Part shown: piece by piece, positions 6,476 through 13,597 of the stretch
How positions within the stretch are numbered: position 1 is the stretch's first letter
Layout of the letters: every line of letters starts with the position of its first letter
Assembly (NCBI RefSeq): GCF_947494755.1
Contig: NZ_CANLVZ010000001.1
Span: 248,001-312,000, forward strand
Reading direction: 5' to 3'
Origin: an uncultured Tateyamaria sp.
GTDB lineage: Bacteria; Pseudomonadota; Alphaproteobacteria; Rhodobacterales; Rhodobacteraceae
Length of the DNA stretch: 64,000 nucleotides
Program-made: the position numbers and the translations under genes
Notes under the pieces: generated by a model
Told to the model about the DNA's origin: nothing
The model's database searches: none
The model's input: the letters and a program-made list of their open reading frames with translations, nothing else

Positions 6476-7615
6476 CTAGCCTTTGTGGATCCAGCCCCCG
6501 CCAAAGATCCGGCTGCTGTCGCGGTCGTAAAAGACACAGGCCTGGCCCGGGGATACGCCTGCTTCGGCGGCGACCAGTTCGACAGTGGCCTCCGTCGCGC
6601 TGATAGGCCGAATCACGGCGTCGGTGGGCGGGCGGGTCGAGCGGACTTTGACCGCCACGTGCCATTCCGATTGGCTGTCGAGCGGAACATCGCCGAGCCA
6701 GTTGATCTCGCGAACAGGGACGGTACGGGTCGCAAGCATCTCCTTGGGGCCGACGATGACCTGACGGGCATCCGCGTCCAGTTTCACCACGTAAAGCGGG
6801 TCCGCCAGCCCCCCGATCCCGAGGCCGCGCCGCTGCCCGATCGTGTAGTTGATCACGCCATCATGGGCCGCCAGAACGCGCCCTTCGGTGTCCACAATAT
6901 CACCCGGTGCCGCCGCCTCGGGGCGCAGCTTGCGGATGACAGAGGCGTAGTCGCCGTTGGGTACGAAGCAGATGTCCTGACTGTCGGGTTTGTCGGCCAC
7001 GCTCAGCCCGTATTTGGCCGCCAAGGCCCGCGTATCATCCTTGGACGGCAGGTGCCCAAGCGGGAAGCGCAGGTAGTCGAGTTGCTCGGGCGTGGTCGAA
7101 AACAGGAAGTAGCTTTGATCGCGCGCGGCATCTGCTGCACTGTGCAGTTCCGCGCCAAAATCGCCCATTTTGCGTTGTATATAGTGCCCCGTGGCCATGC
7201 AGTCCGCCTCAAGATCCTTGGCTGTTTCCAGCAGGTCCTTGAATTTCACGCGCTCATTGCAGCGGATGCAGGGCACCGGCGTGGCTCCGCCCAGATAGCT
7301 GTCGGCGAACTCGTAGATCACTGCGTCTTTGAAGACGTTTTCATAATCGAGCACATAGTGGGGAAAGCCCATTTCCTCGGCCACGCGGCGCGCATCATGG
7401 ATGTCACGACCCGCACAGCACGCTCCCTTTTTGGCCAGCGCAGCCCCGTGATCGTACAGCTGCAAGGTGACGCCCACGACGTCGTAGCCTTGGGTCTTGA
7501 GTTCGGCCGCCACGACCGAACTGTCCACGCCGCCAGACATCGCGACAACCACGCGGGTGTCGGCCGGGGACTTGGCAAAACCAAGCGAGTTGAGCGGACC
7601 GGATTGGTCAAGCAT
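6476..7615 (-). CDS. mnmA: tRNA-specific 2-thiouridylase MnmA
   Basis: MnmA puts sulfur on U34 of tRNAs for Lys, Glu and Gln, using ATP and a persulfide relay. The 379-residue protein has the PP-loop SGGVDSS at residues 27-33. The two cysteines of the reaction are Cys119 ([10 protein letters not shown]) and Cys216 ([13 protein letters not shown]). The N-terminal extension of about 20 residues before RVVVAMSGG is common in alphaproteobacteria. It is divergent from sciP; the region between the two starts contains a perfect CtrA box. Confidence 0.96.
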
Positions 7616-7678
7616 GGGGCATCTCCGGGAGGGTTCGGCGCATATATATGAAAATGCGAAATAGTCTCAAGGGGCCGT

Positions 7679-8057: not shown

Positions 8058-8113
8058 CCTTTTCAGTTCACGTTTAGTTCAGCCCAAGACACCCCAAGTT
8101 TGGAGAGCCTAGA

Positions 8114-13184
<5,071 letters not shown>

Positions 13185-13211
13185 CGCCCGGGTTCCGAAA
13201 AGTTCACAAAT

Positions 13212-13226
13212 GTTCTTAAAAAGTTC
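13212..13226. promoter_or_regulatory. Alphaproteobacterial SOS (LexA) box
   Basis: GTTCTTAAAAAGTTC is an exact GTTC-N7-GTTC direct repeat, the LexA operator form defined in Rhodobacter and other alphaproteobacteria. A third GTTC at 13202 has 6-base spacing to the first. It lies 59 bases before the 42-codon gene and 28 bases after the recG stop. Confidence 0.75.
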
Positions 13227-13284
13227 TTTACGCATCATTAAGAATGTGAGAACAAAGAGGCAACTTAAGAACGGAGACGCCGAC

Positions 13285-13413
13285 ATGACCACGCTGCGCC
13301 ACATCAAACAGATTGCCACCCGGGCCGAAGCGACATTGCTTCAGGATGCACTTGGGGCGGCGGCATTGATGGTGATGCTGGTGGTGGGTCTGCATCTGCC
13401 GTCCTTGATCTGA
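13285..13413 (+). CDS. 42-residue single-pass membrane protein, probable SOS gene
   Basis: The start at 13285 follows a GGAG site (ACGGAGACGCCGAC). The protein has a polar N-terminus (MTTLRHIKQIATRAEATLLQ, net basic) and one hydrophobic helix, about residues 22-40, rich in Ala, Val, Leu and Met. It resembles no family I can name with confidence. Its size and layout and the SOS box upstream recall SidA of Caulobacter, a 29-residue inner-membrane division inhibitor made on DNA damage, and TisB of E. coli. No sequence identity to either is claimed. A structured RNA region follows directly. Confidence 0.7.
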   Translation: MTTLRHIKQIATRAEATLLQDALGAAALMVMLVVGLHLPSLI

Positions 13414-13420
13414 TTACTGC

Positions 13421-13597
13421 CTGCGTACTTGCTTTGATCCTCTTTGCGCCCGTCCCAAATTGGCGCTACCTTTCGTAACCGGCTCTGCCTGTCGATTACG
13501 AATTCCCCCAATTGCCTCGGGGGATAACGGATCTGTCCCCCGCAAGACACGCTTTCCTTGCGCCGCCATCCTTACAGGATGTGCGGCGTTTTTTTTG
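13421..13597 (+). ncRNA. Candidate structured RNA ending in a terminator
   Basis: The 200-base gap after the small gene has dense pairing. GCGT-A-CTTG (13423-13431) can pair with CAAG-AC-ACGC (13543-13552), and GATCC (13436-13440) with GGATC (13529-13533). Inside are three hairpins: GCGCC/GGCGC (13446, 13462), CGTAA/TTACG (13474, 13496) and CCCCC/GGGGG (13505, 13519). GGGGG could instead pair with CCCCC at 13537-13541, and CGCAAG/CTTGCG (13541, 13557) competes with both the outer stem and the terminator. It could be a separate small RNA or the 3' end of the SOS transcript. It does not match 6S, SRP or tmRNA by eye. Confidence 0.45.
13561..13597 (+). terminator. Rho-independent terminator
   Basis: CGCCGCCATCC pairs with GGATGTGCGGCG (one bulge), followed by eight T. 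It faces the convergent chemoreceptor gene. Confidence 0.9.

Follow-up and report, generated by a model that had tools for sequence, protein, structure and literature searches.

A recG-linked gene for a small membrane protein, with two predicted LexA operators and a structured 3′ RNA, in Rhodobacteraceae

Small SOS-induced membrane proteins have been described in several bacteria. SidA of Caulobacter crescentus is presented as a 29-residue inner-membrane protein that is induced through LexA and acts on FtsW (PMC4211646), and YneA of Bacillus subtilis as an SOS-induced protein whose transmembrane (TM) domain determines its location and whose target is also FtsW (PMC13396833). In Escherichia coli, the consulted parts of the dinQ report give a transcript of about 330 nt, two LexA operators overlapping the −35 and −10 elements, and a 27-residue single-TM peptide, DinQ, that affects recombination and membrane depolarization (PMC3567139), while TisB is described as a small SOS-induced membrane peptide (PMC8145889). 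UdsC of Rhodobacter sphaeroides is reported as an sRNA derived from the 3′ UTR of the 300-nt RSP_7527 mRNA, which encodes a small hypothetical protein (PMC9779115, PMC8625941, PMC6238624).

The open reading frame (ORF) analyzed here lies behind recG in an uncultured Tateyamaria sp. and, judged from the description of SidA, shares with it a tiny membrane product, LexA control (predicted here) and an alphaproteobacterial host. In contrast to SidA, its members have 36 to 45 residues and an extra amphipathic helix, and their gene stands next to recG and comes with two predicted operators and a 3′ RNA. The likeness to DinQ resides in a similar transcript length, two operators over −35 and −10 and a single-TM peptide, all predicted from sequence in our case; DinQ is, however, controlled by the antisense RNA agrB, whereas limited scans found no antisense gene here. 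TisB, whose likeness depends on an SOS control that is predicted for our gene, pairs with istR-1 as a toxin-antitoxin, whereas limited scans found no antitoxin here. YneA carries an extracellular LysM domain, while our protein stops at the TM helix. UdsC/RSP_7527 offers a comparable design, a small-protein mRNA of about 300 nt with an sRNA released from its 3′ UTR; the sources describe the promoter there as RpoHII-dependent. The gene would therefore belong to a known kind, the small SOS-induced membrane proteins, in what appears to be a new form that combines a double operator with a conserved 3′ RNA. To our knowledge, the mechanism of division arrest after DNA damage has not been worked out in Rhodobacteraceae, either in marine roseobacters or in the Rhodobacter models. 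The unit offers one conserved candidate for such a post-damage stop, and it has no Pfam or NCBIfam model. We found no report of the small gene in titles and abstract openings of the open-licence literature, supplements being outside this scope, and the LexA sites listed for D. shibae in the consulted part of PMC6473078 do not include it.

The source assembly is a 4.1-Mb draft genome consisting of 60 contigs. The stretch of 64,000 nucleotides analyzed (the window) carries sciP, ctrA, ligA, recG and the small ORF in this order, followed by a convergent gene resembling chemotaxis receptors (Table 1). The ORF encodes the 42-residue protein MTTLRHIKQIATRAEATLLQDALGAAALMVMLVVGLHLPSLI. A preliminary description of this DNA had announced a 42-codon gene with a ribosome-binding site, situated after ligA and recG and preceded by an exact GTTC-N7-GTTC box, and all of these were recovered; the distance from the box to the ATG, given there as 59 bases, is 58 when counted from the end of the box (13226) to the start codon (13285). 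A Shine-Dalgarno-like motif precedes the ORF in 83 of 85 loci examined, and recG is immediately 5′ of it on the same strand in 104 of the 105 loci compared below, the exception being L100, where recG was not found. Elsewhere in the window, sciP and ctrA lie about 5 kb ahead of the unit, and a 388-residue ORF before sciP (6485 to 7651) has no match in Pfam (up to E = 0.001) or NCBIfam (up to E = 1).

Table 1. Features of the unit and its upstream neighbor (positions in the window)
Feature	Position	Strand	Remarks
recG, upstream neighbor of the small ORF	11073..13184	+	NCBIfam NF008164, 1107 bits
Extra GTTC, six bases ahead of O1	13202..13205	+	99/105 loci, 80/85 distinct blocks; putative role
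Predicted LexA operator O1, GTTC-N7-GTTC, GTTCTTAAAAAGTTC	13212..13226	+	105/105 loci
−35-like element TTTACG	13227..13232	+	T, T, A invariant; T17 in 80/84 and C19 in 80/84 distinct blocks; presumed promoter role
Predicted LexA operator O2, GAAC-N7-CAAC, over presumed −10	13250..13264	+	GAAC-N7-SAAC (S = C/G) in 98/105 loci
Ribosome-binding site GGAG	13273..13276	+	8 bases between GGAG and ATG
Small single-TM protein gene, 42 codons + TGA	13285..13413	+	ATG at 13285
Structured 3′ RNA: closing stem and three hairpins, pyrimidine-rich loops CTGCCT, TGTCCCAA, TGCCTC	13417..13552	+	Covariance model R1 match at 13423-13552 (sequence in training set)
Intrinsic terminator: bulged hairpin, then T8	13560..13596	+	Shared fold in relatives; simple terminator scan did not report it

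The ORF is present in all 20 genomes of the genus, each time with an exact box beginning 72 to 75 bases ahead of the ATG. A genus-profile search (E ≤ 0.01) retrieved it from 333 of 395 genomes of the family, covering 282 of 329 genera, and a wider profile matched 56 of the 61 genomes of an order sample, all within the same family. Among 387 genomes of the class, strong matches were restricted to 6 family members; in the remaining 381, 45 matched at E ≤ 0.1 (best, 3.4e−4), mostly inside long reading frames, and we counted none of these as a homolog, relatives as divergent as those described below being likely to escape the search. A search by promoter alone, for an exact 44-base block with 19 fixed bases, found it in 261 of the 395 family genomes, at most once per genome in our table (control pattern, 0). 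A sample of 241 class genomes gave 3 with the block; these belong to the 4 family members of that sample, and none of the 237 other Alphaproteobacteria has it. By hand comparison, 14 of the 62 protein-negative family genomes have the exact block, 347 of the 395 have a protein match or the block, the remaining 48 show neither, and in 86 a protein match occurs without the exact block. A relaxed block occurs in 46 of the 70 tested among these 86 (backward control, 2/70) and is lacking in the other 24; these sites are not tied individually to the ORF, and that of G305 sits at lexA. All ten block loci that we inspected, seven of them protein-negative, contain an ORF of 38 to 45 residues of the same design. 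A phage, plasmid or viral origin was considered and dropped, tblastn giving no match in phage and plasmid collections; a scan of viral contigs with one peptide pattern returned 22 matching stretches, none of them confirmed.

We compared 105 loci: 20 from the genus, 57 named loci (including Sulfitobacter, Roseovarius, Yoonia, Loktanella, Phaeobacter, Rhodovulum and Frigidibacter) and the 28 best-scoring ones from the family profile search, the window's own included. All were found by protein similarity, and the use of named loci and best-scoring matches weights the sample toward nearer relatives; most genus genomes are counted twice, leaving 85 distinct blocks. All 105 loci contain a rigid block of GTTC-N7-GTTC, the −35-like TTTAC and GAAC, of identical length in 104 and one base longer in the last. 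In the 84 distinct blocks of equal length, both GTTC, the next TT, the A at position 18, a TG (13247-13248 in the window, just before O2), GAACA and the final AAC are invariant; the two GTTC and the GAAC were also search requirements, through which no locus was lost. O2 is a perfect GAAC-N7-GAAC in only 1 of the 105. From this arrangement we infer a −35 element, a 17-base spacer and an extended −10 overlapped by O2; a consensus promoter scan of the locus reported no sigma-70 promoter and no canonical −10. Ahead of O1, the extra GTTC makes three consecutive copies (N6, then N7) at 13202-13226 and could perhaps be a third LexA contact. The preliminary description looked to relatives for the same frame and for a box at the same distance from it. 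Frame and box are conserved (20/20 genus genomes, 105/105 loci), and the distance holds within the genus but spans 54 to 108 bases over the 105 loci (starts were chosen by script, some of them possibly misplaced by one or two codons). The operators are thus anchored to the promoter rather than to the start codon. Control by CtrA was also considered, as TTAA-N7-TTTAC at 13216-13231 resembles the CtrA box; this reading was dropped because several genus genomes have TCAA or CCAA in place of the TTAA half, whereas both GTTC are retained.

Of the 48 family genomes missed by both searches, lacking protein match and block alike, we examined 30 and found recG in 27. Downstream of it, O1 occurs in 16/27 and O2 in 11/27 loci, compared with 0.26% and 0.54% in letter shuffles; a perfect GAAC-N7-GAAC lies within 160 bases after recG in 10/27, and O1 and O2 are spaced by 30 to 45 bases in 7/27, five of these seven having the perfect O2. 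TTGAC replaces TTTAC after O1 in several divergent relatives. A small TM ORF with a D-x-x-G-type anchor follows recG in 19 of the 27. Single loci depart from this layout: L270 has the ORF and no exact operators, L271 has GAAC-N7-GAAC and a TM ORF lacking the anchor motif, and L261 shows a block-like match 309 bases downstream with no ORF in the scanned stretch. Six others (L258, L260, L265, L266, L268 and L272, the latter with a partial recG) have neither an operator in the 160 bases read nor such an ORF. Over these loci as a whole, promoter and layout are thus better conserved than the protein sequence, making the unit an example of an SOS promoter that outlasts the similarity of its protein.

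Taken alone, a single GTTC-N7-GTTC proves nothing, because its count is at chance level (2 in the window against 1.67 expected; 109 genome-wide against 142 for the pattern read backward), and it is the conservation of its setting that carries weight. We read the surroundings of 100 of the 109 genomic boxes; a filter for intergenic boxes no more than 250 bases from a called gene start, based on a simple gene caller, left 32 site-gene pairs, ctrA and the small ORF among them. At genes checked by family, boxes lie 48 bases before the start of lexA and 61 bases before that of recA, 42 bases before a PcrA/UvrD-type helicase gene (incomplete in the stretch, with a score under the family cut-off), at pdeM, where the gene start is overlapped by 6, and 78 bases ahead of a DNA cytosine methyltransferase gene. 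With respect to their genes, the boxes of lexA, recA, the helicase and pdeM are inverted, and those of ctrA and the small ORF direct. The boxes at lexA, recA and other checked genes indicate that the motif serves as a LexA box in this genome, on a high chance background. The helicase, pdeM and methyltransferase genes, a boxed gene that looks mmcB-like by eye and two boxed genes without a clear family (six loci: L013, L150, L153, L154, L159 and L161) form a candidate SOS regulon.

LexA itself was detected in 388 of the 395 family genomes. By hand comparison, block and protein match are both absent from three of the seven others (G043, G153 and G357); G153 and G357 show no box or ORF behind recG, and the recG of G043 gave no match. 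The other four (G079, G146, G147 and G268) keep the exact block, which counts against LexA control, though their assemblies consist of 300 to 560 contigs. The comparison hints at a loss of the site together with LexA without deciding the matter. At the level of genera, g53 (G071, G372) gave a weak LexA match and g25 (G043, G357) none; recG was also without match in G043, G071 and G372 at the cut-off used. The box within a conserved rigid block, the exact block throughout the family and the frequent retention of box and ORF in missed genomes together make it very probable that LexA controls the ORF through two operators, and LexA control taken by itself we regard as highly likely. This reading, already proposed in the preliminary description from a single box, gains support from the second operator and from the inverted boxes before lexA and recA; the second operator, the family-wide spread and the structured 3′ RNA are additions to that description.

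The encoded protein is under purifying selection, since the mean pN/pS is 0.22 over 190 genus pairs, compared with 1.15 and 3.07 in two shifted frames. One TM helix is predicted, in line with the preliminary description: the best 17-residue hydropathy has a median of 2.29 over 78 distinct proteins, and AlphaFold2, with 38 aligned members, places helices at residues 3-13 and 15-41 (mean pLDDT, 94.8; pTM, 0.56). By these predictions the product is a small single-TM membrane protein, as are SidA-type inhibitors. D21, G24, L36 and P39 do not vary among the 78 proteins, and R13, T17, A22, A26-L28, V30-L32 and L38 hardly do; conservation is highest in the TM helix, with a conserved D-x-x-G where it starts. 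The 29 divergent proteins always have D or E at the anchor, which the anchor search required, and G follows in 25. The predicted TM stretch lacks K, R and E, which speaks somewhat against the charged helix pattern of TisB. Such residue-specific conservation in a helix free of K, R and E would suit a helix-helix contact with a protein partner better than a pore. The 38 aligned members, which were the proteins scanned, have no match in Pfam (up to E = 0.1) or the PDB (up to E = 1); the best E values were 0.0043 in NCBIfam (3 members), where none was significant, and 0.0055 in PHROGs (2 members).

Three bases past the stop codon, at CTGCCTGCG, begins an RNA fold common to relatives, which together with the terminator extends over about 180 nt (13417-13596) and covaries. 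Of the 85 3′ regions, 9 were dropped (start motif or terminator missing, or odd length), and merging of identical sequences gave 72, of which 45 were aligned; the unaltered MAFFT alignment of these folds to the terminator only, the rest of the structure needing sub-groups and the covariance model. This model, R1, derives from 16 genus sequences trimmed of the terminator. Of 56 non-training sources, 25 match it where expected at E ≤ 1, 16 of them below 1e−3 (E values are rough), and there are two off-place matches on the minus strand (L074 and L075). Two-sided changes affect 28 of 29 pairs, and the alignment reaches a covariation score of 0.556, compared with 0.190 for shuffles and 0.04 to 0.10 for slid controls; these counts are inflated and lean toward structure, since the underlying alignment (A5) was fitted to the model and includes 4 training loci and both off-place matches. 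In this genome R1 has one match (150 of 2533 candidates scored). The Rfam scan reported no family at gathering score over the 3′ RNA; two matches fell short of the threshold, one to Atu_C7 at 13430-13594 (E = 0.53; 19 bits against a cut-off of 45) and one to sX13 in L122 (E = 0.73). Two loci, L071 and L109, have no recognizable 3′ RNA though promoter and ORF remain. Pairing of the RNA with its own leader was rejected, as it is no better than with the leaders of other species (278 of 1000 permutations as good). Conserved structure followed by an intrinsic terminator is what is found in 3′-UTR-derived sRNAs, and the RNA could be a DNA-damage-induced sRNA of Rhodobacteraceae, in which case the small protein would perhaps not be the sole product of the unit. 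The locus thus associates a small, putatively SOS-controlled protein with a conserved RNA in one unit.

The predicted operators, their conservation, the selected frame, the RNA structure and the linkage to recG can all be read from the DNA itself; what the unit does has to be argued from them. We propose that the locus behind recG forms a single transcription unit under repression by LexA. As long as the DNA is undamaged, LexA would occupy both operators, O1 abutting the −35 and O2 covering the −10. DNA damage removes LexA by cleavage, the established SOS mechanism, and this would release a transcript of about 350 nt comprising the single-TM protein, the folded 3′ RNA and the terminator. The protein would be inserted with its N terminus inside, the amphipathic N-terminal helix lying on the membrane and the TM helix starting from the conserved D-x-x-G. 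Most likely, this helix would bind to a component of the complex for septal wall synthesis (FtsW/FtsI/FtsN) and so delay division as SidA does. A SidA-like brake on division during DNA repair is our best guess for the protein, favored by the precedent of SidA and YneA, small SOS membrane proteins acting on FtsW; we give the whole explanation, from repression to septal complex, an even chance of being correct.

Other functions would be compatible with the same promoter. The protein may resemble DinQ and TisB in being an SOS-induced peptide that disturbs the membrane potential or processes depending on the membrane, recombination for example, while RNA structure restrains translation. This reading stays alive because DinQ has the closest gene anatomy that we encountered (PMC3567139, in the parts covered), and a unit beside recG with a structured 3′ RNA would fit it; yet the RNA does not prefer its own leader, the conservation of the TM helix fits a protein partner better than a pore, and no antisense RNA emerged from the Rfam scan (gathering score) or from a promoter and terminator scan, both of them limited, the latter finding no promoter-like site and one terminator-like site on the minus strand (13335-13314; 0.7 expected). 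We consider it unlikely. That the structured RNA is the main product, a damage-induced sRNA that is cleaved from the transcript and acts in trans, the protein being an accessory, would accord with the two-sided changes and covariation reported above, with C-rich loops repeated in the hairpins and with the 3′-UTR sRNAs that Rhodobacter is reported to make from small-protein mRNAs, UdsC being an example (PMC9779115, PMC8625941, PMC6238624, as far as consulted). The purifying selection on the frame, the two loci keeping promoter and ORF without recognizable RNA, and the match of R1 in place below 1e−3 in only 16 of 56 non-training sources argue in the opposite direction, and we judge this reading decidedly unlikely. 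The two outputs might also be combined in a family-wide DNA-damage module, in which a promoter with two LexA operators, better conserved than the protein, would co-induce a division-halting microprotein and a 3′ RNA acting on other mRNAs, an idea that we put forward tentatively and believe to be somewhat doubtful.

Instead of acting on division itself, the protein could tune a membrane signaling or envelope system during SOS, for instance CckA and, by way of it, CtrA and gene transfer agents. An action of LexA on cckA has been reported in R. capsulatus (Kuchinski 2016, as cited in the consulted part of PMC6473078), and in the window the unit stands about 5 kb behind sciP-ctrA, but this neighborhood is perhaps mere gene order and the partner would be purely conjectural, which makes such a role improbable. 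A last reading concerns the promoter: the block might belong to another regulator or promoter type, its LexA resemblance being incidental, given that the motif is at chance level genome-wide and that conservation of the block extends beyond the length of a LexA box. Against this, O1 and O2 both hold the N7 spacing, O2 becomes a perfect GAAC-N7-GAAC in divergent relatives and lexA and recA of the same genome have the box, so that we find incidental resemblance hard to believe.

The window contains its other GTTC-N7-GTTC at 8066-8080, 33 bases before the start of ctrA. As a family feature this box was rejected, being present in only 11 of 47 loci with DNA upstream of ctrA. All 11 are named Tateyamaria, and the box may possibly reflect an SOS-CtrA link at the level of the genus.
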